This document shows positions 8,356-63,421 of a DNA stretch of 64,000 bases, piece after piece (position 1 is the stretch's first letter; each line of letters opens with the position of its first letter). The stretch comes from Antarcticibacterium sp. 1MA-6-2. GTDB taxonomy: Bacteria; Bacteroidota; Bacteroidia; Flavobacteriales; Flavobacteriaceae. A program made the translations under genes and the position numbers. The stretch is taken from assembly GCF_021535135.1 (NCBI RefSeq), contig NZ_CP091036.1, forward strand, positions 2,232,001-2,296,000. Reading direction: 5' to 3'. Under the pieces are notes generated by a model. That model made no database searches, was not told the origin of the DNA, and saw nothing but the letters and a program-made list of their open reading frames with translations.

Positions 8356-8806
8356 TTAACTCAATTTCTTCTTTACGATCATCGAAATGGTTTTGCCATC
8401 TGCCTTACTTAGCAAGGTCTGCAGATGCTTTACCCATCACTTTTCCCATATCCTTCATTCCTTCAGCACCTGTCTCTGCAATAATCTCATCTACTTTTGC
8501 CTCTATTTCCTCATCGGTTAACTGCTCAGGTAAAAACATGCTTATTACAGCTGCCTGGTCAATTTCGGGCTGGGCAAGATCTTCTCTTCCCTGTTCCCTG
8601 TAAATTGCGGCACTGTCTCTTCTTTGCTTAACAAGTTTCTGAAGCAATTTTAATTCTTCTTCCTCAGTTAAACCTTCTTTAGCAGAACTCTCTGTTTGAG
8701 ACAACAAAATCTGACTTTTAATAGCTCGTAGTGCCTCCAGTTTGTTAGCATCTTTGGCTCGCATAGCTGCTTTCATTTCGGTCATTACACGCTCTTGTAG
8801 ACTCAT
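8356..8806 (-). CDS. GatB/YqeY domain protein (apparent frameshift near the end)
   Basis: A YqeY-type protein of about 149 residues, related to the tRNA-binding tail of the GatB amidotransferase subunit; the exact role is unknown. As read, a stop falls after MGKASADLAK. Restoring one base at 8407-8413 (GCTAAGT read for expected GCCGGT) continues the frame as GKADGKTISMIVKKKLS, the normal ending of the family, with a stop at 8356. I therefore treat the gene as intact in the organism. It follows ftsZ with a terminator between, as is common in flavobacteria. Confidence 0.85.
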
Positions 8807-8841
8807 TTTCTTATTTAATTAAGGACTGCGAATATAAAAAG

Positions 8842-8875
8842 AAAACCTGAAATCCTATAAAGAATTTCAGGTTTT
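8842..8875 (-). terminator. Terminator after ftsZ
   Basis: AAAACCTGAAAT (8842-8853) and ATTTCAGGTTTT (8864-8875) form a perfect 12-bp stem between ftsZ and the yqeY-like gene. It marks the end of the dcw transcript. Confidence 0.8.
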
Positions 8876-8896
8876 ATAAAGTGTTCACTTAATAGG

Positions 8897-10873
8897 TTAA
8901 TCTACATTATCGTGCAAAAATGAATTATTACTCCTAAACCTCAATTCATCTTTATCGCCATTCCCCAGGCTTGTCCTGGAAAGTTTTTCTTCTCCATGTC
9001 TTGAGCTGTCAAGATCAATTCCCTGGCGCTTATAGGCTGGCTGTCTTTCTATTTCATCAATGTGAGCAGCATTACTCCTGAATTTATAATTAAATTCTTT
9101 CATTTTTGCTCTTCTGTCTGCAGCTCTTGCAATTAGGCTTTCAGAAATTGGATTATCAAAAGGATCATTCTCATCCCGTTGTGCGGGTTTTTCTGGTTGT
9201 GGCGCCACAGTTTTCTTTTCAAAAACTACTTCATCCTCTTCGGTTTTCTTTTGAGTAGGCCTGGATTTCTTCAGCATTTGCTCCACCTCCATATAATCAT
9301 CAAGGCTATAGCGTTTTATACCTGTCGCAGAACTTTCGGTCACCGGGATAATTTCAATAGGCTCATTCACCTCCATATCTCTGGTTTGCTCACTAAGATT
9401 GTGAACCACCTTTTTTGCTGCTGAATCTTCAGAAGACCTTTGAGTTTGCTGAATTTGGTTCTGAACCGGGGCTTTCTTTTCTTCTTTTTTATTATTGCTG
9501 ATAGGAAAATCAAAAGTAAACATGAATTGCTCTTCCGGTATTCCCGAAATTTCTTCAGCTTCATTAACTTCTAAATCCTTTGTTTCATCTGAAGTATCAG
9601 TAATAATAAAGTTTTCCTGAGCATATTTAACCTCCTCATAGATCACGTTCATATTTCGTACGCTTGGAGGAGTACTTAAATTATCTTTTATTCTAGGAGT
9701 GTTAACCTCCTCTACCTCTTCATCCAAAGAATGGAAAATTTTTGGGGATTCTGTTTCTGAATGTGGTTCATCAGAAATTTGTCTGCCATTGTCAAACTTT
9801 GCAGTTGTAAAATTGTGCTCAGCTCTTTGCTCATCTTCCAGAGTATGGATGATCTTTTTAGTTTCTGTATTTACAATCTCATTTTGTGTTTCCACATTAA
9901 AACTAGATCGCAATTATTGTAACTGCTATTGCATCGTCGAGTTTATCATCTTCCCCAACACCCATAATAATATTAGCACTGTGGCTAAGCCTCATTCTGG
10001 ATGTGATCGTTAATTTCTCCAATCTCATCAATTGTAATTTCTTCTGAACCGGAAACGATAAGCAGTAATACGTTCTTAGCTCCTTTGATCTTGTTATCAT
10101 TAAGCAATGGGGAATCGAGCGCTTTTGTAATCGCATCCTGAGCACGGTTTGCACCAGATGCAGTTGCAGATCCCATTATAGCTGTACCACTATTGCTCAA
10201 TACAGTTTTGGCATCACGTAAATCGATGTTTTGCGTATAGTGATGGGTAATAACCTCAGCAATACCCCTGGAAGCTGTTGCCAATACCTCATCTGCCTTG
10301 GAAAATCCTGCCTTAAAACCAAGATTTCCATAAACTTCTCTAAGCTTGTTATTATTTATTACAATAAGAGAATCCACATGGCTTCGAAGTTTCTCAACTC
10401 CAAGTTGTGCCTGCTCGTTTCTCATTTTTCCTTCAAATTGAAAAGGAATGGTAACTATACCTACGGTAAGTATATCCATTTCCTTAGCCTGCTTGGCAAT
10501 AATTGGCGCAGCCCCTGTACCTTTACCACCTCCCATTCCTGCAGTAATGAAAATCATTTTTGTGTTGGTATCAAGCATTCGCTTTATCTCCTCAAAACTC
10601 TCTACTGCTGCCTGTTCTCCAATTTGCGGATTCGCACCTAGCTCCTAATCCTTCTGTCAGGCTAACCCCTAGCTGAATTTTATTGGGTACCGTACTGTTT
10701 TCCAGGGCCTGCGAATCGGTGTTGCAAATAACAAAATCAACCCCTTTAATTCCTTGTTGAAACATATGGTTGATCGCATTGCTTCCTCCACCACCTACAC
10801 CAATAACCTTAATTACGTTCGATTGGTTTTTGGGTAAATCGAATGAAATGTTTTCGAAATCTGTACTGCTCAT
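8897..10873 (-). CDS. ftsZ: Cell division protein FtsZ (three apparent frameshifts)
   Basis: FtsZ, the tubulin-like GTPase that forms the division ring. GVGGGGSNAINHM is near the N-terminus and the tubulin signature GMGGGKGTGAAP follows; the GTPase core (about 320 residues) is followed by an unusually long acidic C-terminal tail of about 335 residues. The frame breaks at 10636-10642, 9984-9990 and 9902-9908. At each the family requires Ala-Gly or Thr-Gly (GAGANP, EAGHSANII, IATGFN), spelled RCCGGY, and the sequence shows CTAGG, CTTAG or TCTAG instead. FtsZ is essential, so real breaks are very unlikely. The tail carries three copies of a short motif (see findings). Last gene of the dcw cluster. 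Confidence 0.92.
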
Positions 10874-10899
10874 AAATCCTGTTTTACTGGTTCTCTACT

Positions 10900-12250
10900 C
10901 TATTCTGCGTTATCTAAAAAATCTTTAAACTTCTCTGCCCATTTGTCAAAGATGCTTTTCCTTGCTCTTTTTTCCGGGATGGGAGTATTATCTTCCTCTT
11001 CCCCTTCAAAATCGTTTTCCTGTATTTTCTCCTCAACCCTTGGTTGTTCCGGTTCTTTTAAGTTCACCTGCTCCTGGAATCGTGCATTTTTTTGCTCCAG
11101 GCTGTTTAATACTAATCCAACTGCCGTTGCGTAAAGCGGGCTGGTGGTTTCAGTATCACTATTCCCCGCCAGGTGCTCGTTGGGATAACCTATGCGGGTA
11201 TCCATTCCGGTGATATATTCAGCCAACTGCTTTAGATGCTTTAACTGGGCTCCACCACCTGTGATAACCATTCCTGCTATTAATTTCTTTTTCTGCTCTT
11301 CGTGTCCGTAATTTTTTATCTCCAGGTAAACCTGATCGATAATCTCCACAACACGTGCATGTATGATCTTGGAAAGATTTTTAAGAGTAATTTCTTTTGG
11401 TTCTCTCCCCCTTAATCCGGGAATGGAAACTATTTCGTTATCCTTGTTTTCACCCGGCCACGCCGATCCAAATTTTATTTTCAGTAGTTCGGCCTGCTTT
11501 TCAATGATCGAGCAACCTTCTTTTATATCTTCAGTAATTACGTTTCCACCAAATGGTATTACTGCGGTATGGCGGATGATTCCATCTTTAAAGATGGCAA
11601 GATCTGTAGTTCCACCTCCTATATCAATTAAGGCTACTCCCGCTTCTTTTTCTTCCTGACTTAAAACTGCATTTGCTGAAGCCAATGGTTCCAGAGTTAC
11701 TGCTGAAAGTTCCAATCCTGCACTTTTTACACAGCGGCCAATGTTCCTGATTGAGGAAACCTGTCCCACTACCACGTGAAAATTGGCTTCCAGTCTACCC
11801 CCGTACATACCAATAGGCTCTTTTATTTCTGCCTGACCATCTACCTTAAATTCCTGTGGAAGCACATGTATTATTTCTTCCCCTGGAAGCATCACAAGTT
11901 TATGAACCTGGTTGCACAGTGTATGTATATCATCATTATCAATTACTTCATCCGGGTTTGGCCTGGTAATATAATCGCTGTGTTGTAAACTTCTTATGTG
12001 CTGGCTTAGCGATCCCAACCACCACATCCTGTATTTTTAAACCTGAATCTGCTTCTGCTTCCTGTATTGCCAGTTGAATGGATTGTATAGTCTGGGTGAT
12101 GTTGTTCACCACTCCCCGGTGCACACCCATACTTTTTGACTTTCCTATCCCTATGATCTCCACCTTCCCGTATTCATTCTTGCGCCCGATCATGGCCACA
12201 ATCTTTGTGGTTCCAATATCAAGACCTACTGCAATGTCGTTCTCTTCCAT
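10900..12250 (-). CDS. ftsA: Cell division protein FtsA (one apparent frameshift)
   Basis: FtsA, the actin-like ATPase that tethers FtsZ to the membrane and recruits the divisome. The N-terminus VGLDIGTTKIVAMIGRK is the phosphate-1 motif; IDIGGGTTDLAIF (phosphate-2) and VITGGGAQLKHL (adenosine motif) follow. The last residues (ARKSIFDKWAEKFKDFLDN) form the amphipathic membrane-targeting helix. The frame breaks at 12004-12010, where GIAGQHIRS is expected and GCTAAGC is read in place of GCCGGC. It starts three bases after ftsQ and is followed closely by ftsZ. Confidence 0.93.
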
Positions 12251-12253
12251 AAC

Positions 12254-12970: not shown

Positions 12971-14320
12971 TTCTTAATTCTTTTTCAAGCTGGCCCACCA
13001 TTTCACCAATATCACTTAGCTCCTAACATAATAATTACCTTGCAGCCGGAGTTCTTTACTTCATTCGCAATTTCCCCAGGCTGGATCAATTTTTTATTAC
13101 TGTTCTCAACCTTTTCCAGTAACCATTCTGAGGTTATTCCCTGCATAGGTTTTTCCCGCGCAGGATAAATGTCCAGCAATCTTACCTCATCAAACCCTGA
13201 AAGGCTTTTACCAAAATCATCAGCAAAATCCTTTGTACGGCTAAACAGGTGAGGCTGAAATATTACCATCACCTCCTGGCCTGGATGCATTTCTCTTACA
13301 GCCTGATGGGCCGCAGCAATCTCGGTAGGATGGTGAGCATAGTCATCAATTAAGACAAATTCCTCTGTCTTGATCCTGTAAGAAAACCTGCGTTTCACAC
13401 CTCGAAAATGCGATAGTGCCCTGACAAGCTTAAGGGGTGGGGCCCCATATTCCAGTGCCATTGCCAGGGCAGTTACAGCATTCTGCAAATTGTGTTTGCC
13501 GGGGAGATTACATTGTAAATCCTTTATTACTGTTGACGGAGTACGTAGATCAAAATGATACGACCCGTTTTCGACTTTAATATTTACTGCTGAATAATCT
13601 GCATCATCATTTGCGACGCCAATTGTGGTGCCAGGCATATCCAAACCTTTGCTCACAAAAAGTTTTCCTCCACGTGGAACAAGAGAAGCAAATTCCCTAA
13701 AGGATTCGATAAGTTTTCCGGCATCTCCATAGATGTCAAGATGATCTGCATCCATAGAGGTTATTGCCGCTATATTGGGTGATAATCTTAAAAAAGAACG
13801 ATCAAATTCATCAGCTTCTACTACCATAACTTCATTACCCTGAAGGATCAAATTGCTGTTGATATCTTCACTAATCCCTCCCAGAAAGGCAGTAACTTTA
13901 GCTCCGGAATGACTGAGTAAATGCCCCAAAATGGCAGTAGTGGTAGTCTTCCCATGAGTTCCTGCAACTGCAAGAGTAAAAATGTCTTTGGTTATCATTC
14001 CCAGCACCTCTGACCTTTTTTTAATAGAAAATCCTTTTTCCCTGAAATAGTTTAGTTGTTGATGATCTGCAGGAACTGCAGGTGTGTAAATTACCAGGGT
14101 AGTATTGATATTTCTGAAACTTTCAGGCAATAAATTCACCTCATCTTCATACACCACTTCTATCCCTTCAGCCTCCAGAGAACGGGAGAGACTTAGTCGC
14201 GGTTTTGTCGTAACCTGCAACTGATTTCTCCAGGGAATTAAAATATCGTGCCAGGGCGCTCATTCCTATTCCACCTATTCCGAGGAAATAAAGATTTTGT
14301 ATATTTTTAAAATCGTTCAA
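12960..14320 (-). CDS. murC: UDP-N-acetylmuramate--L-alanine ligase MurC (two apparent frameshifts)
   Basis: MurC adds L-alanine to UDP-MurNAc, the first amino acid of the peptidoglycan stem. YFLGIGGIGMSALARYF is the N-terminal nucleotide-binding loop, VAGTHGKTTTTAILGHLL the ATP P-loop, and DDYAHHPTEI the C-terminal domain motif. Lesions at 14191-14197 (ACTAAGT) and 13014-13020 (GCTAAGT for the invariant GAGD near the C-terminus) break the frame. The first methionine-like codon lies in a palindrome, so I take the TTG at 14320 as start; this is uncertain by a few codons. Confidence 0.9.
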
Positions 14321-14335
14321 GTTCGTTGTTGTTCT

Positions 14336-14368: not shown

Positions 14369-15468
14369 TTAGATTTTATTATTTAGTAATTTTTCAACTT
14401 CATCTACAATGGCTTCTGTCGCTTTGGGCAGTGCCATTTCTTTCATATTTTCTGAAAGCTCCTTCCGCAGTTCTTCTGAATTCAGCATTAAAAGAATTGT
14501 TTCCTCAAAATCCTGAGCCAGATTATCTTCTCTTATCATTTTTGCTGCATCTTTTTGTACCACTGCCATTGCATTTTTCATTTGGTGATCTTCTGCAACA
14601 TTTGGCGATGGAATAAACAGCACAGGTTTCCCTACTATACACAATTCTGAAACACTTCCTGCACCAGCCCTTGAAATAATAGTATCTGCTGCGGCATATG
14701 CAAGATCCATTCTCTTTAAAAAAGCGTGAGTTTGAATGGAATCACTATTATAGATTTTGTATTCGTCATAATATAAGGAGCCGGTTTGCCAGATCACCTG
14801 CACCTCATTTTCTTCAAAAAGATCCACATACGCTTCCATAAGTTGATTAATCCTTCTGGAGCCTAAACTGCCTCCCAAAACCAGCAGCGTCTTTTTCTCG
14901 CGATTCAGCTGAAAAAATTTCAAAGCTTCTTCCCGTTTAGCTGTAATGTTTTTGATATCCTGCCTTACGGGATTCCCGGTGATCCTGATCTTTTCTTCCG
15001 GAAAAAATCTTTCCAGATCTTCGTACGCAGTACAAATTACATTCGCCTCTTTTCCCAACATCCTGTTTGTTATCCCGGGATAAGAATTCTGTTCCTGAAT
15101 AAGGGTGGGGATCTTCTTCATATTTGCCATTTTCAGCAATGGTCCACTTGCGAATCCGCTTGTCCAATTACCACGTCTGGCTTGAACTTTTTTATGATTT
15201 GTGCTGCCCGATATAAACTGCTTGCCAGCTTAAAAGGAAACATCAAATTTTTTAAGGTGATTTTCCGTTCAACTCCTGTGATCCACAATCCTTCTATTTT
15301 GTAGCCTGCCTCCGGCACTTTTACCATCTCCATTCTGTCCTTTGCTCCCACGAACAAAAATTCCGCATCGGGATATCTCCTCTTAATTTCATCTGCAATA
15401 GAAATTGCGGGATAGATATGTCCTCCCGTTCCACCACCTGATATAATTATTTTCAGAGGTTTTTTCAT
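14369..15468 (-). CDS. murG: UDP-N-acetylglucosamine transferase MurG (one apparent frameshift)
   Basis: MurG converts lipid I to lipid II. The N-terminal loop [20 protein letters not shown] and the C-terminal donor-binding motif [22 protein letters not shown] are clear. The frame breaks at 15158-15163, where VVIGTGGFASGP is expected; ACAAGC is read for ACCGGC with a one-base loss. The gene contains the only intact RCCGGY site I found in the window (14780-14785, in IWQTGSL). The start overlaps the ftsW stop as ATGA. Confidence 0.9.
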
Positions 15469-16669
15469 ATTGCTTCACTTAAAATATCCAGCGGATTTTC
15501 CTCATCCAGATCCCTTTCTTCCGATTCTTTTATTTCTTCCCTTCTGGCACTAACACTTAATACAATTCCTAAAGCCAAACACGTCATCCAAATAGATGTT
15601 CCCCCGCTACTTACAAGCGGCAGAGTTTGTCCTGTGACCGGAAATAATTCCACTGCGACGGCCATATTTACCAGCGCCTGAAATATTATAGGCAATCCCA
15701 CTCCCATTACTACCAGCTTCCCAAAAATTGAATCGGCTTTTGTGGCCACAATCACTATTCTAAACAATAACATGAGATAGGCCAGCATAACTCCAATTCC
15801 CCCTACCAGTCCCATTTCCTCAACAATAATGGCATAAATAAAATCTGAAGAAGACTGTGGCAGGAAATTCCTTTGAACACTCTTCCCTATTCCTGCTCCC
15901 GCTATTCCTCCCCGGGCTATGGCTATTTTAGCTCTCTCGATTTGGTAATCGGCTTCTGTATCTTCATCATTGGCAAAATTTTCAATTCTGCTTGTCCAGG
16001 TGTCTACCCGATTTGGCAAGAATCCCGGAAAAGCTTTAGCCGTGAGAATAAAAAGGGTGAGCACAAGTAATCCCGCTCCCATAATTATTCCGATATATTT
16101 TAAAGGATATCCTCCTAAAAAAACCAGCACCATCACCATTGTAAAAATTATCGCTGTCGTGGAAAAGTTGGCAGGGAGGATCAGGGCCAGAACAACAAAA
16201 CTAGGTGTCCATAAAGGAAGAATAGTTTCCTTAAAAGTGACTGTTTTTTCTGAAATTCTTGTAAGATATCTCGCCACATAAACCAGCAATACCACTGCAG
16301 CCAAAGTCGATGACTGGAATGTCACTCCCACCACTAGGTATTTGGATCCACTTAGCTGGCATTTGATCCCCCAATCGTTGTTCCCTGAGTGATTGTATAG
16401 ATAAGCAGCACCACTACAATTGGAAGCAAAAGAATTGATAAGCCTTTAAAATAGTGATAAGGAATTTTATGAATTGCGTATAATAAGCAGAAGCCCAACA
16501 ACAGGTGAAAGAAGTGCATCACCAGATAATTAAAAGTACTACCATCTCCATACAAATAAGCAATATTGCTACTTGCGCTATACACAGGTAAAAACGAAAA
16601 CAACGCTAATAACCCGGCTGTAGCCCAAATAACCTTATCTCCTTTTATATTTGAAAAGATGTTACTCAT
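15465..16669 (-). CDS. ftsW: Lipid II polymerase FtsW (two apparent frameshifts)
   Basis: FtsW, a SEDS-family glycosyltransferase that polymerises lipid II at the septum with FtsI. It is a multi-pass membrane protein of about 400 residues. [19 protein letters not shown] is the conserved C-terminal segment. Two lesions lie only five codons apart, 16350-16356 (GCTAAGT where SNASRW is expected) and 16333-16339 (CCTAGT where IPVVGVTFQ is expected). Both match RCCGGY. Order and overlaps with murG and murD are normal for the cluster. Confidence 0.9.
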
Positions 16670-16795: not shown

Positions 16796-18137
16796 AAGGT
16801 TTCTCACTGCATCTTTAAATTGCCTGCCGCGGTCTTCGTAATTTTCGAAGAGATCAAAGCTGGCGCAGGCGGGAGAAAGTAAAACTGCATTCCCTTTGTC
16901 TGCCAGTTTATAAGCCATTTGTACAGCTTCTGCCATAGACTGGGTTTCGGTCATTAATTCTACACAATTGCCAAAAGCTTCAAAGATTTTAGAATTATCA
17001 ACACCAAGACAGATAATTGCCTTAACCTTCTCATTAACAAGCGGAAGCAATTCAGTATAATCATTCCCTTTGTCTACTCCTCCAACTATCCATACGGTCT
17101 CAGTATCCATACTGTCCAAAGCATAATAGGTAGCATTAATATTTGTTGCCTTGGAGTCATTGATGTACATCACATTATTGATCTTAAGAACTTTTTCCAG
17201 GCGATGTTCCACCCCCTGAAAACTTTCCATACTGGCTCGTATGGTCTCTTTTCGTATTCTTAATAACTGGGCCACGGTTGAGGCAGCCATTGCGTTTTTC
17301 GTGTTGTGTTGACCCTCAAGTGCTAGAGACGATTTCGGCATAATAAATTGGGTGTTTTGTGTAATTATTTTAATGTTGTTATCTTCTAAATAAGCTCCGT
17401 TTTCTAACTTTTTAACTACGGAAAATGGTAACTCCTGCGCCTTTACATGATGCCCCTTTAACCACTTTGCAATGATCTCGTCATCCCCATCATAGATCAG
17501 GTAATCTTCTTCGGTTTGATTTTTTGTTATTCTGAATTTTGATGCCACGTACTCATCCAGATTATAATTGTATCGATCTAAATGATCGGGAGTTATATTT
17601 GTTATAACCGCTATATGGGGTTTAAAATCTATTATTCCGTCAAGCTGAAAGCTACTCAGCTCCAAAACATACCAGTCCACATTTGTCTGGGCCACCTGTA
17701 AAGCAAAACTATCTCCTACGTTCCCCGCCATTCCAACAGACAATCCTGCACTCTTAAGAAGATCGTATACCCACTTAGTTGTGGTGGTTTTCCCATTGCT
17801 GCCTGTAATTCCTATTATTTTGGCAGAAGTATAGGCAGATGCAAACTCTATTTCAGAAATGACAGGAACCTTTTTCTCCAAAAGCTTCACCACAAGCGGA
17901 GCTTTTTCCGGAATTCCGGGACTTTTCATCACAAGGTCTGCATCCAGAATTTTCTTTTCGGAGTGTTTCTCTTCTTCCCAATCCACACCTAACTCCTGCA
18001 GTTGCTTTTTATATTTCTCCTTAACCTTTCCCCTATCTGAAACAAAAACTGAAAATCCCTGCTTTAGAGCAAGCACAGCAGTCCCCACCCCGCTCTCGCT
18101 TAGCTCCCAGAATTGCTATTTTTCGTTGTGATTCCAT
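16793..18137 (-). CDS. murD: UDP-N-acetylmuramoylalanine--D-glutamate ligase MurD (one apparent frameshift)
   Basis: MurD adds D-glutamate to UDP-MurNAc-L-Ala. GITGSNGKTTTTKWVYDLL is the ATP-binding loop, NITPDHLDRY and YINDSKATN are Mur-ligase signatures, and LLSPACASFDLFENYEDRG is the C-terminal signature. The true ATG is at 18137 (MESQRKIAILGA); eleven codons in, GCTAAGC (18098-18104) replaces the GCCGGC expected for the GAGESGVG nucleotide loop. About 444 residues when corrected, normal for MurD. Confidence 0.92.
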
Positions 18138-21057: not shown

Positions 21058-23062
21058 CTCAGGTTTAATGCTACTTGTTGGTTTTTCTTTATTTTTTGCC
21101 CCGGCTCGACTGACTGCTCTCTGACATATCCTTTGCCCTGCACCTGCACTTTCAACCCCAGGTTCTCCAGTAAAGACATCGCATCCATTACGGGCATTCC
21201 CTTCACATTAGGCATCACTTCTTTTATATCCCGGGACGCTGCATAATACTTTTCAAAATCCTTGGAAATTTTATTATTCTCTATCTCCAGGGACTCGATC
21301 TCGTCTTCAATAGGCGTATCAGTATATATTTTCTGCGCAATACGTTTAAACACAGGCCCACTTACATCTGCTCCATAGTATCCGGTACTTACCTTAGGTT
21401 TGTGAATTATTACAATACTGGTATACTTGGGATCTTCAGCGGGAAAATATCCCACGAAAGAGGAGATATATTGGGGGTTAGACGCCCATCCTTCTTTCCA
21501 GTATTCGGTTTGAGCCGTTCCTGTTTTTCCGGCCATAGAGAAATTGGGCGAGTAAAGGTTTTTTCCTGTACCCTTTTCCACAACATTCTTCAACATTTCC
21601 TGAACCTTGGAAATCGTTTCTTTTGAACAAATTGAAGGATTAATCACAGTGAGTTCATTCTTCACTATTGTTTTATCCCACTCCTTTATTTCCTTAATAA
21701 ACCTTGGTTTCACCATTATTCCATTATTGGCTATGGCATTATAAAATGTAAGGGTTTGTAAAGGCGTAATTTGAATACTCCCATACCCGTAAGCCATCCA
21801 TGGAAGTGAAAGACCGCTCCACTTTTTGTCACCGGGATAAGGAATATAAGGTGCTCCCTCTCCTTTAATAGAAATCCCCAAAGGTTCATTCAAATTCATT
21901 CTATTAAGACCATCTACAAATTTTTTGGGATTGTCTTTGTAATTTTCATAGATGAGCTTTACTATTCCAACGTTTGATGATACTTCAAAAGCACGGGCAG
22001 CCGAAATTTTTCCATACCCACCGCGTTTTGAATCGCGCACGTGATTGCGACGAATCGTCATTATACCATTTTCGGTATCTACCACAGTACTGGTATCGAT
22101 CACTTTATCTTCCAAAGCCACGACCATAGCCATAAGCTTAAAGGTCGATCCCGGTTCGTGCGCTTCCCCAACAGCATAATTCAATTTTTCATAGTAGGAA
22201 CCTTTGGCGGTGCGACCAAGGTTTGAAATGGCTTTTATCTCACCTAGGTTTCTGTTTCCATAACCACCACCGTTCCGTGATCGGCTTCATATTTTTCAAG
22301 CTGGGCCAACAGCGCGTGGTGAGCTATATCCTGAATATTGACATCAATTGTAGAAACCACATCATAACCATCTTTTGGCTCCACTTCATTATTATCGCTA
22401 ATAGGCTTCCACTGCCCCTTTGCAATCTTTTGTTTTAGCCTGTGCCCGTCCTTACCTTCCAGAAATGGGGCAAAAGCACCTTCCAGACCAACACGGGTAT
22501 AATAACCCTGATCATCCTGGCGCTCATATCCCACCGTTCTGGCTGCCATCGCCCCAAGAGGATGCTCTCTTACAGTACGCTGTTCTACGATCATTCCTCC
22601 TTTATAAGCACCCAAATTGAACATGGGAAAGCTTTTCACTTTTAAATATTCCGAATACCCCAAATTTCTGGCGACAAGCAGATACTTGTGTTTATTTACT
22701 CTTGCTGTTCTTAAAGTATGCGCCCATTGGGAGGAACTTTTTCCGAACATTTTTGAAAGTTCCTGAGAGAGTCCGGTTATGTTTTTTTCGAAATTTTTAT
22801 CGGAAACCGTAACAGCATCAAACCTAATGTCATACTTAGGAACCGATGTAGCTAAAAGATTTCCATTTGTATCATAAAGATTCCCGCGATTTGCCGGAAT
22901 AGTAAAATTTCGATAAGTGCGCTCCTCTGCCAGCTGATTGTATTTTTCACCCTCAACTATCTGTATATTGAGCAACTGCACAGCTACCGCAACAGCAAAG
23001 ACAAACATAAGTCCTGCAATGAAGTACAAACGGTTTAATATGTGCTTATCGGTGGTTGCCAC
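21054..23062 (-). CDS. ftsI: Penicillin-binding protein FtsI/PBP3 with PASTA domain (one apparent frameshift)
   Basis: Septal transpeptidase. N-terminal transmembrane helix (FIAGLMFVFAVAVAVQLLNI), PBP dimerisation domain, transpeptidase domain with SxxK in PGSTFKLMAM, SxN in EVSSNVGIV and KTG in AGKTGTAQTE. A C-terminal PASTA repeat (about the last 60 residues, MPNVKGMPVMDAMSLLENLG) is typical of Bacteroidota FtsI. The frame breaks at 22242-22249, where METETGEIKAI is expected; ACCTAGGT is read for ACCGGT, a two-base gain. Confidence 0.92.
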
Positions 23063-23414: not shown

Positions 23415-24760
<1,346 letters not shown>

Positions 24761-27262: not shown

Positions 27263-28743
27263 CTAATAAGCCTTTGCAAATAAAACCCGTTGTGAAGAAG
27301 GTTTTCCAGTGAAAACACATTTGCCTACTTCCTTATTTCCTGCCATAGGAATACATCGTATTGTAGCTTTGGTTTTGTCTTTTATAGCTTTTTCAGTCTC
27401 CGGTGTTCCATCCCAGTGTGCCGAGAGAAATCCTCCTTTAGTTTTTAGAACTTCTTTAAATTCTTCAAAACTTTCGACCTCTGTTATATGGCCATCCCTA
27501 AAGTCCTTTGCTCTCTGGTATAAATTCTCCTGCATAGTAGTCATAAGAGCTTTAATTTTCTCCACAACCTCCTCCTGAGGAACAATTTCTTTCGTAAGCG
27601 TATCCCTTCTTGCAAGTTCTACATTCCCATTTTCAAGATCTTTTGGTCCAATAGCGATTCTTACAGGTACACCCTGTAACTCATATTGCGCAAATTTCCA
27701 GCCGGGCTTTTGTGTATCCCTGTCGTCATATTTAACCGAAATCCCTTTTGCTTTGAGTTGAGCCGCAAGCTCGTTTGCCACTTTTGAAATTGCCTGAAGC
27801 TGCTCATCTCCTTTATAAATAGGAACAATAACTACCTGGATTGGAGCAAGATTTGGCGGCAGTACCAGACCCTGATCGTCGCTATGGGTCATTATAAGCG
27901 CTCCCATTAATCTGGTGGAAACACCCCAGGATGTAGCCCATACGTGTTCCAGACTTCCTTCTTTTGACGCAAACTTTACATCAAAGGCTTTGGCAAAATT
28001 CTGGCCAAGGAAGTGCGATGTCCCTGCCTGTAACGCCTTTCCGTCCTGCATCAATGCCTCTATACAATACGTTTCAACAGCACCTAAGCAAAACGCTCAT
28101 TTTCACTCTTGGTTCCCTTAATAACAGGAATAGCCATAAAATTTTCTGCAAATTCAGCATAAACATCGTTCATCTGTTCGGCTTCTGCAATAGCTTCTGC
28201 TTTGGTAGCATGAGCTGTATGACCTTCCTGCCACAAAAATTCAGCAGTTCTTAAAAACAATCTTGTACGCATTTCCCACCTTACAACATTTGCCCATTGA
28301 TTGATGAGAATTGGAAGATCCCGGTAGGATTGGATCCAACCTTTGTAAGTGTTCCAAATGATTGCTTCACTGGTAGGCCTCACTATAAGTTCCTCTTCCA
28401 GCTTAGCTTCTGGATCAACTATTAGTTTAGCACTATTTTCGGGATCGGTTTTTAATCTGTAATGAGTTACCACTGCACATTCTTTGGCAAATCCTTCAGC
28501 ATTTTTTTCTTCAGCTTCAAAAAGACTCTTAGGCACGAAAAGTGGAAAATAAGCATTTTCATGTCCTGTTTCTTTAAACATTCTGTCTAATTCAGCCTGC
28601 ATTTTTTCCCATATTGCATAGCCGTATGGCTTAATCACCATGCAACCTCTTACTGCTGAATTTTCAGCCAGATCTGCACTGACTACCAACTCATTATACC
28701 ATTTCGAATAGTCTTCTTTACGCGTAGTTAATTTCTTACCCAT
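27263..28743 (-). CDS. proS: Prolyl-tRNA synthetase (one apparent frameshift)
   Basis: ProS of the short, YbaK-less eukaryote/archaeal-like type, about 492 residues, charging tRNA-Pro. Class II motifs 1 and 2 ([39 protein letters not shown]) and the C-terminal anticodon domain and zinc-like tail (IRCIPM... [10 protein letters not shown]) are clear. The frame breaks at 28082-28089, where [20 protein letters not shown] is expected: GCTTAGGT is read for GCCGGT, a two-base gain. Confidence 0.94.
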
Positions 28744-28806
28744 TTCTTAATTTTGGCACAAATGTTGTATTTTATCACCTGTTGTGTCTATGTTAAAGGT
28801 ACAACT

Positions 28807-36044: not shown

Positions 36045-36867
36045 ATGTTTTTTAATGCCATTGTCTGGGATCCTTCGGAAGGATTAGATTTGGGTTTCTT
36101 TACCCTTCACTACTACAGTTTAATGTTCTTGATAGCCTTTGGCCTTGGCTGGTATATTATGAAGAGCATATATGCAAAAGAAGGAATTCCGGAAGAAAAG
36201 CTTGATCCTTTATTCATATATATGGTTCTGGCCACTCTTATTGGAGCACGATTGGGCCATGTCATCTTTTACGATTGGGATTACTTTCAACATCACTTAC
36301 TTGAGATATTTCTGCTTAGTTAGATTTGAACCTGAATTTGAGTTTACGGGATTTAGAGGATTAGCGAGTCACGGTGCTGCTATCGGGATAATTATAGCGA
36401 TGTACCTGTACCGGAAAAATGTTCTTGACAAACCAACATTATGGATACTTGACAGAATTGTAATTCCCGTAGCCAGTGGTGGTGTTTTCATCAGAATTGG
36501 AAATTTCCTGAATTCAGAAATAATTGGTAAACCTACAAACAGTGACTACGGAGTTATTTTTGCAAAACTGGGTGAGAATTTCCCAAGACATCCGGCGCAG
36601 TTGTACGAGTCTTTTTGTTATATTCTTGTCTTCCTCACCTTATGGTTTGTATATTGGAAGACAGACAAAAAATACAAACTAGGTTACATTTTTGGTTTAT
36701 TTCTGGTCCTGTTATGGACAGTAAGATTCTTTATAGAATTTTTAAAAGAGCCGCAAAGTGAAGGTGAGATTGTAATGTCTCTAAATACAGGACAATGGTT
36801 AAGTATTCCCTTTATTATCGCTGGAATTTATTTTATGTACAGGCCAACTAAAAATACTACCGTATGA
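36045..36867 (+). CDS. lgt: Prolipoprotein diacylglyceryl transferase Lgt (one apparent frameshift)
   Basis: Lgt attaches diacylglycerol to lipobox cysteines. A multi-pass membrane protein with the conserved RGLASHGAAIGI (catalytic-region His) and RIGNFLNSEIIGKPT segments. The frame breaks at 36314-36320: GCTTAGT is read for GCCGGT (LPVRFEPEFEF expected). About 274 residues when corrected. The next gene encodes a lipoprotein and overlaps its end. Confidence 0.93.
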
Positions 36868-42069: not shown

Positions 42070-43033
42070 TTAAAAACGGTAATGTACCCCGAGATTAGCA
42101 TTAAAGAAATTGCTGGCGGTAAACATGGTGCTGATTTTAAAATTATCGAAGTAATAATTAAATCCCAGGTCTCCTTTAAACTTGGTGCCGCTCCCACTTA
42201 TTCCGGTTAAAGCAGTGTTTAGTTGAGATAGGTATTCACCACTCCCACCCATTTCGTAATCAAAACTTGAGGCCGTGACACCCAGGGCTCCAAATACTTC
42301 AAAATTCCCATAAAGTCTTGAACCAAGGGCCTGGAAAAGCCAAAGATCGGCACTAACATCTATTCGGTTAAGGTCCAGTAAAAGAGGAATAGTAATTTGA
42401 TTGAAAGCATAATCAGCATTAAAATTACTATATGTTATCACACCTGAAAATTGGAAATCCTCAGCATTGTATCTTCTCTCATAATATTGGGTAAAATTGT
42501 GCTTAATTCCAATTCCATAAGTACTAAAACCCACATCGTTTACCGTTATGGAAGGAAGAAACCTTATTGTCACTTCACTGGAGTATGGTAATCCAATAGT
42601 GACCTGAGGGTATGGATGCATAATCATGCTTTTGTCTAATCCATTAATTGCATCAAAAGAAAAGCTTTGATTAAAAATTTCTCCTTCAAAAACAGCATCT
42701 GTTTCACCTCCAAATACCGTAGGCAGTACCGCATTTTCACTACCCCTGAATTTCAGAATTGAAAAATCTCTGTTTGATGATAATTTTTGTTGTTTCCCAT
42801 CAGGAATAAATACAGCGTTCCCGTGTACTGATACTTCAAATTTCCATTTGTCAAGAGTTCTTCCCGAGGTAAACCAACTAAGCACTGGATTGCAAAGCAG
42901 CAGCTTCAGCTCCCGGGGTAGCAAAGTTGTTGGCCACCTTTAGCATATCGTTTATTAAATTGTCTACTTGGTCCTGAGCGTTTGCTGTGTAGGTCACCAG
43001 CAACAAAAGCATAAGCTGAAATATTTTTTTCAA
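42070..43033 (-). CDS. DUF6588-like secreted beta-barrel protein (one apparent frameshift)
   Basis: About 320 residues. Reading upstream past the break at 42877-42883 (GCTTAGT for GCCGGT; SSAGWFTSGRTLDKW expected) reaches a clear signal peptide starting at a TTG at 43033: MKKIFQLMLLLLVTYTANAQ. The rest is rich in beta strands and ends NFFNANLGVHYRF, with a terminal aromatic typical of outer-membrane barrels. I recognise it as the flavobacterial DUF6588-type family; function unknown. Confidence 0.75.
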
Positions 43034-46346: not shown

Positions 46347-46987
46347 ATGGGATGTTTAAATATTTATGAGTTTGTAAAGACACCTTCCATTGTGGATTTT
46401 TCATCACGTAATCAACAATTAAAGGAATCATTTTATCTCTCTTACTCCATTCGGGTTGTAAATAGAGAATGCAGTTATCATTTACTTTTGCAGCTTGTTC
46501 TTCAGCAAATATAAAATCATGCGAGTTAAAAACGATAACCTTTAGTTCATTGGCAACTGCATAAACTTCCTCTGTGGGAAGCTTTATCTTTTTAGGCGAT
46601 AAGCAAACCCAATCCCAGGTGCTTAGTTAATTTATACGCTCCCGAGGTTTCTATATGAACCTTGCAACCCCTGCTTTTTAATCTTGACGTAAGCGGGCCC
46701 ATATCCCAGGTTAATGGTTCACCGCCCGTAATAACTATTGTACTGCTATGAGCCGCGGCATCCGCCACCATCTCATCTATTCCAGTAGGAGGATGTAATT
46801 GTGCATTCCAGCTTTCCTTGACATCACACCAATGACAGCCTACATCACAGCCTCCTACCCTAATGAAATAAGCAGCAGTCCCTTTATGGAAGCCTTCTCC
46901 CTGTATTGTGTAAAATGCTTCCATCAATGGCAGCATAAGTCCCTCATCTACCAGCTCTTGTATATCCTGTGTAACCATAGCGTGCAA
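46345..46987 (-). CDS. queE: 7-carboxy-7-deazaguanine synthase QueE (one apparent frameshift)
   Basis: A radical-SAM enzyme of queuosine/7-deazaguanine synthesis, making CDG from carboxytetrahydropterin. GGCDVGCHWCDVKESW holds the CxxxCxxC iron-sulfur motif and TGGEPLTWD the SAM motif. The frame breaks at 46621-46627 (ACTAAGC for ACCGGC); the rest then reads TWDWVCLSPKKIKLP and ends HKYLNIP at 46345. About 214 residues, the normal size. Confidence 0.9.
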
Positions 46988-53313: not shown

Positions 53314-54840
53314 ATGGAAGAAAAAGAAAAGTTTATCCGGCATATTCGGGAAGGTTATGAATTTAAAGGAGATCATATTTACCTTGGAGCAGCAATGTAT
53401 AAAGGGGAACCTCAGCCAGAAGCACGTGTTAAAATTCCGGTTAAGACGTTGAACAGGCACGGCCTAATTGCCGGAGCTACAGGAACAGGAAAAACAAAAA
53501 CCCTGCAGATACTTGCTGAAAATTTATCAGATATAGGAATCCCCGTACTTTTAATGGATGTAAAAGGTGATCTAAGCGGCATCGCAAAACCTGCTGAAGA
53601 AAATAAGAAGCTAATTGAAAGACACTAGCTTTTAAATTTTGAATTGACCAGCAAGGGATCTCCGGTAGAGATCCTAAGCCTTTCTGAACAACCCGGAGTA
53701 AAGCTGAAAGCGACGGTAAGTGAATTTGGCCCAGTGTTATTAGGAAGGATCCTCGACCTCACTGACACCCAAACCAGCATTCTGGGAATTATCTTCCAGT
53801 ACTGCGACGATACTCACCTACCTCTGCTGGATCTTAAAGACCTTAAAAAAATCCTTGCTTTTGCTACAGAAGAAGGAAAAGAAGAATTTGAAAAAGATTA
53901 CGGAAGGATCTCAAAAGCCTCAACAGGTACTATTCTGCGAAAAATTGTGGCATTAGAGCAGCAGGGAGGTAATCAACTTTTTGGAGAACCCTCCTTTGAA
54001 GTAATGGATCTTGTAAGGAAAACTTCGGAAGGAAAAGGATATGTAAATATTATACGTCTTGATGATATTCAGGATAAACCGAAGATTTTCTCAACCTTTA
54101 TGACCAGCCTGCTGGCTGAAATCTATTCAGAATTTCCGGAAAAAGGAGATGTTGACAAACCTGAACTTGTTCTATTTATTGATGAAGCTCATCTTATCTT
54201 TAAAGAAGCTTCCGGCGCATTAATGGATCAAATGGAAAGTATTATTAAACTAATACGGTCAAAGGGGATTGGAATCTACTTTATTACCCAAAATCCTACG
54301 GACGTTCCTGCAGCAATTCTTAGCCAATTGGGGCTGAAAATTCAACACTCGCTAAGGGCCTTTACCGCAAATGACAGGAAAGCTATAAAATTAACAGCAG
54401 AAAATTATCCACTTTCAGAATATTACGATACCAAAGAAGTACTTGGCTCGTTAGGAATAGGAGAAGCTATAATTTCTGCCCTTGATGAAAAAGGAAGACC
54501 AACACCCCTTGCGGCAACAATGTTACGCGCTCCTATGAGCAGGATGGATATACTTTCACCAGATGAGATAAGCGATATAATTTCCAAATCCCGGCTCGTA
54601 GAAAAATATAACCGGGCAGTAGACAGGGAAAGTGCCTATGAATTATTAAATGCTAAACTCTCACGTGCAGAGCTGGATGAAGCCAAAGAAAAAGCCAGGG
54701 AAGAAAGAAAAGTAGTGACCCGTTCCTCCAAGCCTTCAGGAAGCAGATCTTCCACCCGCCAAAATCCTATTCTTAAAGTACTTACAAGTGCCACTTTTAT
54801 ACGGGGAGTAATGAGCATATTAAACAAAACTTTAAAATAA
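53314..54840 (+). CDS. HerA/DUF853-like ATPase (one in-frame stop as read)
   Basis: 508 residues, helicase HerA-like DUF853 family. Walker [11 protein letters not shown] (about residues 54-63), Walker [13 protein letters not shown], and a sensor region [16 protein letters not shown] lies in frame at 53626-53628 (CACTAGC); replacing ACTAGC (53624-53629) with ACCGGC gives ERHRLLNFEL with no length change, so this lesion is a pure substitution. The C-terminal helix is highly charged. Role unclear; possibly DNA processing. Confidence 0.87.
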
Positions 54841-54853: not shown

Positions 54854-55406
54854 ATGTTTAAAAAAATTAGTCTTGCCGCATTAGTTTTATCAATTGCAGT
54901 CGCCTGTGGAGATCATTCAGATCCATACCTGATAGAAGCTACACGAGTAGGACCCTTAACTAAGGAGATAAAGATCAATCAACTGGACTCAATTTTTTCC
55001 AATGATTCTATTGTACGTCATACCTCCGGCAATAAGTTATTGAGTGCCACAAATGATATAGAAATTTATGATAAAGATGGTTCTCCTCTTCTTATTATTG
55101 AGCTAAGTACAACAATTTGATTCTACAAGCACAGTAGGATATATACAAATACTTGATCCACGATTCGAAACAGCCAAAGGCTTAAATACTTCCAGCACGT
55201 TTGGGGATGTGGTTAAAAACTACAGCATTTCCCGCATTGAGAATACTTTAAACTCTGCAGTGGTATTTATTGACGAGTTAAATATTTACCTCACAATTGA
55301 TAAGAAAGAATTACCATCCAGCCTAAGGTTTGATACCGATACCAGAATAACTCCAAATCAAATTCCCGACAATGCCCCAATTAAACATTTTATGATAAGT
55401 TGGTAA
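54854..55406 (+). CDS. Lipoprotein of unknown function (one apparent frameshift)
   Basis: About 184 residues. Lipobox SIAVACGDHS at about residue 18. The frame breaks at 55102-55108 (GCTAAGT for GCCGGT); joined it reads LLIIEPVQQFDSTSTVGYIQILD and continues to IKHFMISW. No domain recognised. It follows the HerA-like gene by 13 bases. Confidence 0.78.
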
Positions 55407-57181: not shown

Positions 57182-58202
57182 ATGAACAGATTAAAACCCT
57201 CATTGGTTCGGCAAATTTTTGTTCTTTTTGTCATTGCATTCCTGGGTTTTTTAATTTTCAAGGAAATTGTTCCTTTTTTATCGGGTATTTTAGGTGCTAT
57301 CACTTTATACGTGATACTTAAAAAGTGGATGAGCAATTTAGTAGCCAGGGGTTGGAAGAAAACCTGGGCAGCAGTGTTGCTTATGGTGGCCTCTTTTATA
57401 GGAATTTTAGTACTTAGTAGTACTTATTGTTATTATGCTTTCTTCCAAAATTGGACAGGCCATTGCCAATTCTGAAAAGGTAATTGCTGCTGTGAAGGAG
57501 CAGGCAAATCACCTGGAAGAGTACCTGGAATTTGATGTAAGCAATTCTATTGACACGTCTTCAATTACCGCCTGGCTCACAGCAAATCTTCAAAGTCTTG
57601 CAGGAGGAACCTTTTCGGCCTTTATTGCAATTGGGATCATGTACTTCCTGCTTTACTACATGCTCATCAACAGAGATCTTTTGCATGAGGGTATAAAAAG
57701 TTACATTCCTCTCAATTCTGAAAATATCAGACTAATTGAAAAAGAAAGTGATCTCTCTGTAAAATCCAATGCCTTAGGCATCCCTTTAGTTGCAATTATA
57801 CAGGGAGTCATTGCTCTTATAGGATTTCTCATCTTTGGTGTGCCCGATCCTTTGTTTTGGTTCACCATTACAGCTGTAGGATCTATGGTTCCTTTTGTAG
57901 GCTCTGCTTTAGGAATAATTCCCGTTACCTTACTATTGCTCTCTCAGGGACAAAACTGGCAGGCCATAGCCATTTTAATTTACGGATTGGTCGTAGTTGG
58001 AGCTACAGATAATTTCGTTAGGCTGTATATCCTGGAAAGGCTCTCAAGCGTTCATCCTCTAATTACATTATTTGGTGTAGTTGTAGGAGTCCCTCTGTTC
58101 GGCTTTATAGGTTTAATATTCGGGCCGCTGCTAATTTCCTTATTTTTGCTTATATTAAAGATCTACAAAAAAGAATACGGTGACGAAAATGACAATTTGT
58201 AA
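57182..58202 (+). CDS. AI-2E-family transporter permease (one apparent frameshift)
   Basis: About 340 residues, multi-pass. Early helices, a periplasmic helical region (KVIAAVKEQANHLEEYLEFD), then helices with GVPLFGFIGLIFGPLLISL typical of the AI-2E/TqsA family. The frame breaks at 57412-57418: ACTTAGT is read for ACCGGT (LVPVVLIVIMLSSK expected). The substrate is unknown; the family name is historical. Confidence 0.85.
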
Positions 58203-58220
58203 AATTTAAAAAAGAAATAT

Positions 58221-58637: not shown

Positions 58638-58656
58638 ATCAGCAGAAAAGTAATAG

Positions 58657-58685
58657 AAAAAGGACCTTTTAGAGGTCCTTTTTCT
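58657..58685. terminator. Bidirectional terminator between ykvA-like gene and folD
   Basis: AAAAAGGACC and GGTCCTTTTT form a 10-bp stem between convergent genes. Confidence 0.85.
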
Positions 58686-58704
58686 ATATATAAAATTATA
58701 ACTT

Positions 58705-59598: not shown

Positions 59599-59713
59599 AT
59601 TTTATAGTGGTCAGTATTTTTTTGGAAGCTCCTTCCTTCCCAAAGGGAAGAGTTAAATCACGAAAAACGCGACATTAAAATTATTTTTAAAATTCACCTT
59701 TCGGGGCAGGGGC

Positions 59714-61041
59714 TTATTTCATCCCGTTCATCATCTGCATCATTTTTCTACCGCCACCACCTTGCATCATCTTCATCATTTTGCCCATTTGGTTGAACTG
59801 CTTTAGTAATTGGTTAACCTGTTGTACTGATGTACCTGAACCTTTAGCAATTCGTTTTTTCCTGTTAGCATTAATAACGGCCGGAGTACTTCTCTCTTCA
59901 GGAGTCATTGAATAAATTATCGCCTCTACGTGTTTAAAGGCATCGTCGTCTATATCAACATCTTTAAGCATTTTACTGCACCCGGAATCATAGCCATAAG
60001 ATCTTTCATAGATCCCATCTTCTTTATTTGGTGAAGTTGATTCAGGAAATCGTCAAAACCAAACTGGTTCTTTGCAATCTTCTTCTGAAGTTTTCTTGCT
60101 TCCTCTTCATCGTATTGTTCCTGCGCTCTTTCAACAAGTGAAACCACATCTCCCATCCCCAGGATCCTGTCTGCCATTCGGGAAGGATAGAAAACATCAA
60201 TGGCTTCCATTTTCTCTCCAGTACCAATAAACTTAATTGGTTTATTAACTACAGATTTTATAGATATCGCAGCACCACCACGAGTATCACCATCTAACTT
60301 TGTAAGGATTACACCGTCGAAATTAAGCCTCTCATTGAAAGCTTTAGCTGTGTTCACAGCATCCTGGCCCGTCATAGAATCTACAACAAAAAGAGTTTCC
60401 TGAGGCTGGATAGCAGTGCGTATATTGGCAATCTCGGTCATCATCGCTTCATCTACAGCTAAACGACCAGCGGTATCTATGATTACTACAGTATGACCAT
60501 TCTGCTTCGCGTGAGCTATTGCAGATTTTGCTATACTAACGGGATCTTGGTTTCCTTCTTCACTATAAACCTCAACTCCAACCTGGTCTCCTACTACGTG
60601 CAGCTGATTTATTGCTGCAGGACGGTATACATCACAGGCAACTAATAAAGGTTTTTTGGACTTTTTGTTCTTTAAATAATTTGCAAGTTTTCCCGAAAAG
60701 GTAGTTTTACCACTACCCTGCAAACCCGACATTAATATAATCGAAGGATTTCCGGAAAGATTTATACCTTCTGCCTCACCACCCATTAATTGAGTAAGCT
60801 CATCTTTTACAAGCTTCACCATTAACTGTCCAGGCTTTAATGCAGTCAATACATTTTGCCCCATTGCTTTTTCCTTTACTGTACCAGTAAATTCCTTGGC
60901 AATTTTATAGTTAACGTCGGCATCAACCAATGCTCTTCTTACTTCCTTTAAAGTTTCGGCAACGTTTACTTCGGTTATCTGGCCGTGTCCTTTAAGAACA
61001 TGTAAAGCATTATCTAACTTATCACTTAAATTATCGAACAT
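59714..61041 (-). CDS. ffh: Signal recognition particle protein Ffh (one apparent frameshift)
   Basis: Ffh/SRP54, about 443 residues. N domain, GTPase with [21 protein letters not shown] and TKLDGD, and a methionine-rich M domain ending [21 protein letters not shown]. The frame breaks at 59975-59979: GCAGT is read for GCCGGT (MIPGAGKMLKDVD expected), here a one-base loss. Essential for membrane targeting. Confidence 0.94.
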
Positions 61042-61142
61042 ATTTCCTGTTGTTTTATACTGCTTTATCTAAAAAGCGAGGAGCAAATTTAATCATTTTA
61101 AAGCCCATTGAAAAAAGTTTCTTTGCAGCTGAAATAAATTAT

Positions 61143-61610
61143 TTAATCAAGTACCTGAAGTGGAAAATAAACTCTTATAGCACCAGTTGAAGGCAATTGT
61201 TCAAAATCATATTCAGGTATATCGAAATCGGTAATATAGGGGTTATTACATTCTCCTGTAGATAAGGCTGTAGTGTATTGAATATCCATAATTACTTCAC
61301 TGTTCAACTTTAAGCTAATAGTATTTTCACCCACAGTCTCTCCCAGGGCAATTCTTAGATACTCCCTGCCGTCAACATTAAGGAAATTGTGATTCACTGG
61401 CTGGTTATTATTACTTACCACAGTAAATTGCGATTTATCAAAGGTCCCGTTAGAAAAGAGATTTTCATTAGAACCTTCCTCCACAAGATCTATTAATATT
61501 AATACAGGACCTATTACACACTCAGAACCATCATCTGAAATATCACAGGAGGATACTCCTAAGAAAGTAATTAATAGACCAAATAACATTATCTTTTTCA
61601 TATTTTTCAA
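61143..61610 (-). CDS. Lipoprotein of unknown function
   Basis: 155 residues; lipobox LGVSSCDIS at about residue 22; the mature part is beta-rich (NTISLKLNSEVIMDIQYTT). No domain recognised. Intact, between ffh and argS. Confidence 0.75.
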   Translation of the reverse strand: MKNMKKIMLFGLLITFLGVSSCDISDDGSECVIGPVLILIDLVEEGSNENLFSNGTFDKSQFTVVSNNNQPVNHNFLNVDGREYLRIALGETVGENTISLKLNSEVIMDIQYTTALSTGECNNPYITDFDIPEYDFEQLPSTGAIRVYFPLQVLD

Positions 61611-61638
61611 TTTAGATTTTAGATGGAATAGCTATACT

Positions 61639-63421
61639 TTACATCCTTTCCGGAACCTGAATCCCCAGTAATTCAAAAGCAGATTTTATAACATCTCCCA
61701 CGATTTTCGCTAATTGCACCCGAAACACTTTTTCAGATCTTTCTGTTGTACCCAGGATAGTGACGTTTTGGTAAAAAGAATTAAATTCCTTCACAAGATC
61801 ATAGGTATAATTAGCTATTAAAGCAGGGCTATGATTTTCAGCAGCCTGTTGTATGGTCTCTGGATATAACTGAAGTTGTTTAATCAACTCCTTCTCCTTC
61901 TCATGAAGTTTATACTCCGCAGGAACATCAATTTTAGCCTCAATATCAAAATCGGCTTTTCTTAAAATTGACTGGATCCTGGCGTAGGTATATTGAATAA
62001 ATGGACCAGTATTTCCCTGAAAATCAACTGACTCTTCAGGGTTAAACAAGATACGTTTTTTAGGGTCAACTTTCAAAATGTAATATTTCAAAGCTCCTAA
62101 ACCAATAATTCTGTAAAGTTCAGCCTTTTCATTTTCTGAATATTCATCAAGTTTCCCCAGCTCTTCAGATATAGCTTTTGCCGTAAGCGTCATTTGTTCC
62201 ATAAGATCATCGGCATCTACAACAGTACCTTCCCGGCTCTTCATTTTTCCTGATGGAAGATCGACCATACCGTAACTTAAATGGTACAGGTAATTCGCCC
62301 ACTCAAAACCCAATTTTTTCAGAATTAAAAACAGCACCTTAAAATGATAATCCTGCTCATTACCAACAGTGTAAACCATCCCGTCTATTTCAAAGTCTTT
62401 AACCCTTTGTATTGCGGTCCCAATATCCTGGGTCATATAAACTGCAGTGCCGTCACTTCGAAGAACTATTTTCTCATCAAGCCCCTCCCCTGTAAGATCG
62501 ATCCAGACGCTGCCATCTTCTTTTCTATAAAAAACACCTTTTTCCAGCCCCTCGTTCACAACATCTTTTCCTAAAAGGTAGGTTTGACTTTCATAATAAT
62601 TTTTATCAAAATCAACTCCAAGTGCCTCATAAGTTTTTTCAAAACCACTGTACACCCAGCTGTTCATTTTTTCCCAGAGAGCCACAATGTGAGGATCGCT
62701 AGCTTCCCACTTTCGCAGCATCTCTTTAGCCTCATTAAGAATAGGAGCTTCAGCTTTTGCTTCTTCTTCATTAACTCCCCTTTCTAGTAATTCCTGAACC
62801 TCTTTTTTATACTCCTGGTCAAATTTCACATAATAATTACCCACCAGTTTATCTCCCTTTAACCCGGAAGATTCAGGAGTTTCACCATTACCAAATCTTT
62901 CCCAGGCGAGCATTGATTTACATATGTGAATACCCCGGTCATTGATGATCTGGGTTTTGTGCACCCTATTAAGCAGCTTTAAGAATTTCAGAAACCGAAT
63001 ATCCCAAAAGATTATTCCTGATATGCCCAAGATGTAAAGGCTTATTGGTATTTGGCGAAGAATACTCAACCATTATGGATTTCGGGTCCTCTCCGGGTAA
63101 ACTTTTTCCATATTGAGGATCATTCCTTATTTCAGAAAATTGAGATTTATAATAGCTGTCACTAAGCACAATATTCACAAATCCCTGAACTACGTTCACG
63201 CGATCTACTTCAGAAACATTTTCCACTAAAAAATCGCCCACGGTTTTACCCAATTGTACCGGGTTTGTCCTCACCAGCTTAAGCATTGGAAAAGTAACCA
63301 GGGTGAGATCTCCTTCAAAATCTTTTCGTGTGGGCTGAAACTCTACCTGTTCCAATTCCACTCCATAAGAATTTGCTACTGCTGCTTTTACCTGTTGCTC
63401 GATTTTATCCTGGATCTTCAT
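61639..63421 (-). CDS. argS: Arginyl-tRNA synthetase (one apparent frameshift)
   Basis: ArgS, about 594 residues. N-terminal Add-1 domain, HIGH motif in SPNTNKPLHLGHIRNN, KMSK-like KMKSREGTVV, and the anticodon-binding C-terminal domain. The frame breaks at 62968-62974: GCTTAAT is read for GCCGGT (EILKAAGRVHKTQIIND expected). Upstream ATG at 63421. Essential. Confidence 0.94.

Follow-up and report, generated by a model that had tools for sequence, protein, structure and literature searches.

The window analysed here, the 64,000 nucleotides at bases 2232001-2296000 of the single 4,383,004-base contig of Antarcticibacterium sp. 1MA-6-2, carries ftsZ, ftsA, murC, murD, proS, ffh, argS and other genes whose reading frames are broken in the assembly, and our subject is the relation of these breaks to the motif RCCGGY and to a predicted restriction-modification (R-M) system of the same genome. 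Full-length proteins of five comparison genomes of the same genus (Gillisia, family Flavobacteriaceae; G001, G002, G003, G005 and G011, the genome under study being G000) were aligned to the window DNA with frame shifts allowed, and a lesion was kept if at least three of the five relatives reported it. The nearest genome, G011, is 88% identical in a window protein of 487 amino acids (aa), which we take to be of the Mur-ligase type and whose best named matches are from Gillisia; window and relatives are about 75% alike. From 75 lesion clusters this full-length pass kept 30 and dropped 45; in an earlier pass with local alignments, 23 lesions reached at least three of the five relatives. The 30 lesions affect 23 genes (counted by reference protein 24, since two are proS by position) and comprise 24 of net +1 (three of them mixed between relatives), two of net +2, two of net -1, one of net -2 and one in-frame stop, with three breaks in ftsZ and two each in murC, the ftsW-type gene, mraZ, proS and the OmpP1-like gene. 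The names of the ftsW-type gene, the penicillin-binding protein gene at the ftsI position and the queE-type gene are best matches under the curated cut-off. A reading made earlier from the sequence alone had counted about 32 breaks in about 25 core genes, and this count largely stands, except that the breaks in M14, dacB2 and ldcA fall away under the three-relative rule; a break at 49353 is reported by just two relatives. The breaks are specific to the 1MA-6-2 genome and rare in its relatives: with each relative in turn as the subject and the remaining four as references, the counts were 1, 0, 3, 0 and 2 lesions (reported by at least three of those four), compared with 21 when the window was treated in the same way with four relatives.

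The breaks centre on one short motif, RCCGGY. The motif suits the peptides of half or more of the relatives at 22 of the 30 lesions, and 113 of 149 lesion-by-relative cells (76%) are compatible with it, compared with 12.3% for random residues. In the local set, a majority of relatives fit at 16 of the 23 lesions, a genuine RCCGGY stands at the lesion spot in some relative at 8 of the 23 (1.27 expected), and RCCGGY ranks first among 32 degenerate palindromes tested at the breaks. Thus the relatives do carry RCCGGY, or peptides compatible with it, at most breaks, as the sequence-only reading had proposed as a check.

The motif itself has almost vanished from the assembly, within the window and beyond it. 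RCCGGY occurs once in the window, where shuffled sequences give 17.6, while YCCGGR occurs 59 times and the matching 78.5 kilobases (kb) of the relatives hold 37-104 RCCGGY. The whole genome has 62 (ACCGGT 42, ACCGGC 14, GCCGGT 5 and GCCGGC 1), compared with 1352, 1731, 2538, 3447 and 4326 in the five relatives; GCCGGC, present once here, numbers 81-739 in each of the remaining 15 genomes of the genus, and a count of zero was found in only two of 99 genomes searched, both small (0.3 and 0.6 megabases, Mb). Of 221 RCCGGY sites of relatives in aligned DNA, the window retains one, and none letter for letter, whereas twelve control motifs are retained at 7.6-29% and YCCGGR at 21-24% of sites. A length change accompanies 41 of the 221 sites, 26 of them net +1, compared with 4.9-11% at the control motifs other than RCTAGY, and the replacement strings include the seven-base GCTTAGC, GCTAAGC and GCTTAGT, of the CTWAG kind. 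Around the window, 200 kb hold 2 RCCGGY compared with 185 in 200 kb of G011, and none of the 81 G011 sites aligned in this outer DNA is kept, 8 of them with net +1, a change seen in 0-1 cases for each of seven control motifs. Genome-wide, GCTAAGC occurs 357 times on both strands (184 + 173) compared with 74-240 in 15 relatives of the genus, an excess of only about 1.5-5 times; its strand balance is as predicted if modified sites were miscalled, and the relatives are balanced as well.

Table 1. Breaks and the remaining RCCGGY site in the window (window positions; relatives reporting each lesion and relatives whose peptide fits RCCGGY).
Position	Strand	Gene or feature	Change	Relatives reporting	Peptide fits	RCCGGY in relatives; remarks
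8401..8413	-	yqeY	net +1	5/5	5	
9899..9911	-	ftsZ	net +1	5/5	5	
9978..9990	-	ftsZ	net +1	5/5	5	in 2 relatives
10630..10642	-	ftsZ	net +1	5/5	5	
11998..12010	-	ftsA	net +1	5/5	5	in 3 relatives
13008..13020	-	murC	net +1	5/5	5	
14185..14204	-	murC	net +1 in 4 alignments, -2 in 1	5/5	0	
14780..14785	+	sole RCCGGY remaining in window				motif count
15155..15167	-	murG	net -1	5/5	5	
16326..16338	-	ftsW-type gene	net +1	5/5	5	name below cut-off
16345..16357	-	same ftsW-type gene	net +1	5/5	5	in 1 relative
18092..18104	-	murD	net +1	5/5	4	aligned in 4 relatives
22236..22248	-	penicillin-binding protein gene (ftsI position)	net +2	5/5	5	family names below cut-offs
24168..24180	-	rsmH	net +1	5/5	2	motif misfit
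24482..24494	-	mraZ	net +1	5/5	5	
24711..24723	-	mraZ	net +1	5/5	5	aligned in 3 relatives
28076..28088	-	proS	net +2	5/5	5	
28741..28753	-	proS start	mixed kinds	4/5	1	doubtful break
30217..30229	+	OmpP1/FadL-like gene	net +1	5/5	0	
31319..31331	+	same OmpP1/FadL-like gene	net +1	5/5	4	
34466..34478	+	cysS	net +1	5/5	5	in 1 relative
36312..36324	+	lgt	net +1	5/5	5	in 1 relative
40061..40073	-	secDF, variable stretch	mixed kinds	5/5	2	
42871..42883	-	DUF6588 gene	net +1	5/5	5	
46615..46627	-	queE-type gene	net +1	5/5	4	in 2 relatives; name below cut-off
53622..53634	+	HerA-like ATPase gene	in-frame stop	5/5	1	
55103..55115	+	unnamed gene (182 aa in G001)	net +1	5/5	3	in 2 relatives
57410..57422	+	AI-2E-family transporter gene	net +1	5/5	3	in 1 relative
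59969..59981	-	ffh	net -1	5/5	5	
62965..62977	-	argS	net -2	5/5	2	
63920..63932	+	unnamed gene (142 aa in G001)	net +1	5/5	2	past the range of the sequence-only reading

The genome also encodes a predicted R-M system. A search with PF00145 gave one match, at 3945020-3946102 on the minus strand, and searches of the same genome with PF01555, a methylase family, and PF07832, the Cfr10I/Bse634I endonuclease domain, gave none. The match, in locus L141 (G000:C1:3935001-3955000, 20 kb), is a C5-methylase of 394 aa that matches PF00145, TIGR00675 and PADLOC MTase_II and has its C5-methylase motifs intact, including the catalytic ones. Overlapping its end is a restriction-enzyme-type gene of 359 aa (L141 8900-9979; PADLOC REase_II, E 6.9e-132), and upstream of it lies a gene for a Vsr-type mismatch nuclease (TIGR00632, E 2.7e-46). 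A tyrosine-recombinase-type gene adjoins these R-M/Vsr genes (L141 5885-12493) and a serine-recombinase-type gene lies some kb away, as if the system were on a mobile island. The 20 kb of L141 hold no RCCGGY, so the open R-M genes in the assembly are no evidence here.

The specificity of the methylase can be approached through its relatives. The best two of 20 listed plasmid relatives, from Nostoc and Moraxella, both adjoin endonucleases annotated Cfr10I or Cfr10I/Bse634I; the 1MA-6-2 methylase is 53-54% identical to them, and 53% to both in the recognition region, with boundaries that we set at residues 205-325. Among 120 listed homologues, one, 65% identical, is labelled by its source as an NmeDIP methylase. 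Cfr10I reads RCCGGY (PMC4081073), and for NmeDI the available text gives an RCCGGY site with a Vsr alongside and lists a related system as m5C (5-methylcytosine) (PMC7973814, PMC4081073). Since its recognition region resembles those of methylases adjoining Cfr10I-type enzymes, the 1MA-6-2 methylase is predicted to mark RCCGGY. Against three other Gillisia C5-methylases, of eight found, the same region is 13-14% identical in two and 38% in that of G013 (L129, G013:C171:11078-12106), which may read a related site.

A Cfr10I/Bse634I endonuclease was considered as the partner of this methylase and rejected, as PF07832 has no match and the neighbouring endonuclease belongs to another family (PF27126, precomputed on the matches listed among 2132 relatives in a protein search). 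Among solved structures the methylase has matches to 44 distinct sequences, and a search with the endonuclease found none. When the endonuclease was sought in 397 genomes of the family and 395 of the class, it was found besides 1MA-6-2 only in G207 (76% identical) and G739 (68%), in both next to a homologous methylase (63% and 62%). These two genomes retain 1269 and 1821 RCCGGY, suggesting that a pair of this kind does not by itself clear the motif from a genome, the site of the two pairs being predicted as well.

We favour, with a probability of roughly 0.88, the explanation that the breaks are consensus misreads at RCCGGY, whose cytosines the type II R-M system of this genome is predicted to methylate, in an assembly probably built from nanopore data alone. 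The methylase would place m5C at RCCGGY, the mark would shift the pore signal, and the basecaller would return an incorrect string, often with extra bases. The version of either strand could then pass into the consensus, and any gene containing RCCGGY would have its reading frame broken there. We infer the m5C mark, the nanopore platform and the lack of short-read correction alike. The artefact is very probably of a known kind, new in its motif and with a likely enzyme to go with it. The sequence-only reading had proposed that RCCGGY is modified in the cell and miscalled by the sequencer, and this is very probably right, since the site is lost genome-wide and in the 200 kb outside the window, and since a predicted m5C R-M system, likely RCCGGY-specific, is encoded in the same genome.

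Several observations weigh against this explanation. Plain m5C is usually less disruptive to basecalling. Retention is also low for RCGCGY (0/34) and YCGCGR (1/66), and 31 of 547 GC-rich 6-mers are retained at less than 2%. By raw counts in the window, ATCCAA (23 compared with 63 expected from the relatives) is as depleted as ACCGGC (1 compared with 26), and the length change at RCTAGY, 16% (8/50), comes near the share at RCCGGY. The 62 RCCGGY that survive genome-wide do so unevenly, 42 being ACCGGT. The claim of the sequence-only reading that almost all breaks spell the motif was also somewhat strong, as 8 of the 30 lesions fail the peptide rule: 14191 in murC, 24174 in rsmH, 28747 at the proS start (perhaps an alignment-end effect), 30223 in the OmpP1-like gene, 40067 in secDF, 53628 in the HerA-like gene, 62971 in argS and 63926. 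The weak fit of rsmH, which that reading had noted, is borne out: despite being reported by all five relatives it is the clearest misfit, with a fitting peptide in two of five, and may have another source of error. Finally, modification-mediated errors in Listeria are mostly mismatches in the available text (PMC10687267), whereas here they lie at RCCGGY, are mostly one extra base and affect nearly every site.

AGTACT is enriched in the window (25 compared with 9 expected from the relatives). We take this enrichment, the depletion of ATCCAA and the low retention of RCGCGY, YCGCGR and the GC-rich 6-mers to be lineage drift, because none was seen tied to frame breaks; a second motif is a possible alternative. 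The depletion of ATCCAA/TATCCA and the enrichment of AGTACT were checked as signs of a second modified motif where at least four relatives agree, and were set aside: TATCCA is kept at 2 of 12 positions, with scattered substitutions. The same test had just two conserved RCCGGY positions, neither kept, and is uninformative on RCCGGY.

The nature of the mark and of its enzyme could also differ from what we propose. An assembly alone may betray a methylome, with the missing motif naming the site and leading to the enzyme, and near-total site loss with gained bases would here mean a bulkier or unusual cytosine modification, unreadable by basecallers, in place of plain m5C; we consider this unlikely. 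It is improbable, too, that the miscalls do fall at modified RCCGGY but with a mark that is not m5C or an enzyme other than the methylase found. Such loss goes beyond the usual effect of m5C, and the genome was searched for PF00145, PF01555 and PF07832 only, which also counts against our own assignment; yet the recognition region of the sole C5-methylase found resembles those of RCCGGY systems, and a Vsr gene adjoins the methylase.

Explanations that dispense with miscalled modified bases fare worse. If R-M or other selection had truly removed RCCGGY and the breaks were real mutations or pseudogenes, the genome-wide near-absence of the motif would follow, and many lost sites are indeed ordinary one-base neighbours, e.g., ACAGGT and ACCTGT, as expected between relatives about 75% alike. 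However, avoidance does not require frame breaks, G207 and G739 keep their RCCGGY despite a homologous endonuclease and methylase, and a cell with ftsZ, ftsA, murC, murD, proS, ffh and argS all broken together is not credible as a viable one, which leaves this account very improbable. Ordinary assembly or homopolymer errors without a motif might explain the few off-motif breaks, such as that in rsmH, but not the first rank of RCCGGY among the palindromes at the breaks or the persistence of YCCGGR, and we give them hardly any weight. The recurrence of similar CTWAG-type strings at many breaks speaks for programmed frameshifting or recoding there; against it, net changes vary (+1, +2, -1, -2 and a stop), the genes of the relatives are intact, and CTWAG, rejected as a signal by itself, is not enriched in the window (92 compared with 139 expected), so that recoding appears extremely improbable.

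The favoured explanation, miscalls at methylated RCCGGY, has precedents in part. In Listeria nanopore assemblies, errors centred on GCAGC or GCTGG were removed by amplification; like those inferred here, they are strain-specific and motif-centred, and they are linked to the strain's modification system, as is predicted here, whereas in 1MA-6-2 the errors are proposed from the assembly alone (PMC10687267). Of 103 erroneous indels in Neisseria nanopore assemblies, 77 coincided with methylated bases or adjoined them. The R10 assemblies there resemble the case proposed here in having indels at or beside methylated bases, nearly all methylation errors being m5C, and differ in that the available text names no motif and that errors per genome are far fewer (PMC12506013). 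Compared with known nanopore methylation errors, the near-total site loss and the gained base are unusual. A literature search found no report of RCCGGY as a sequencing-error site, which is not proof of none.

The R-M system likewise has known counterparts. Like NmeDI, it combines an m5C methylase, an endonuclease and a Vsr, and the RCCGGY site of NmeDI is predicted here too, from the lost motif and the similarity in the recognition region; NmeDI cuts on both sides of its site (12/7), and the sequence compared is that of a protein labelled NmeDIP (PMC7973814, PMC4081073). With the Cfr10I/Bse634I systems it shares a methylase 53-54% identical and the same predicted site, but its endonuclease is of the PF27126 kind (precomputed) in place of PF07832. 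VchM places m5C at RCCGGY genome-wide, as would the methylase here, and is an orphan, whereas an endonuclease and Vsr accompany the 1MA-6-2 enzyme; this comparison is by description, from the available text (PMC4654547). According to the same paper, methylated RCCGGY resists cutting by BsrFI.

If our explanation is correct, well over a thousand sites would be wrong in this reference genome, intact core genes would appear broken, and this assembly would mislead studies of gene content, pseudogenes or typing based on it. Public assemblies might also be checked in this way without reads: a short motif absent from one genome and common in its relatives, together with a matching methylase in that genome, would flag such errors and name the likely methylated site. 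For the organism itself, the genes in the living cell are presumably intact, and the biology of the cell requires no new mechanism.

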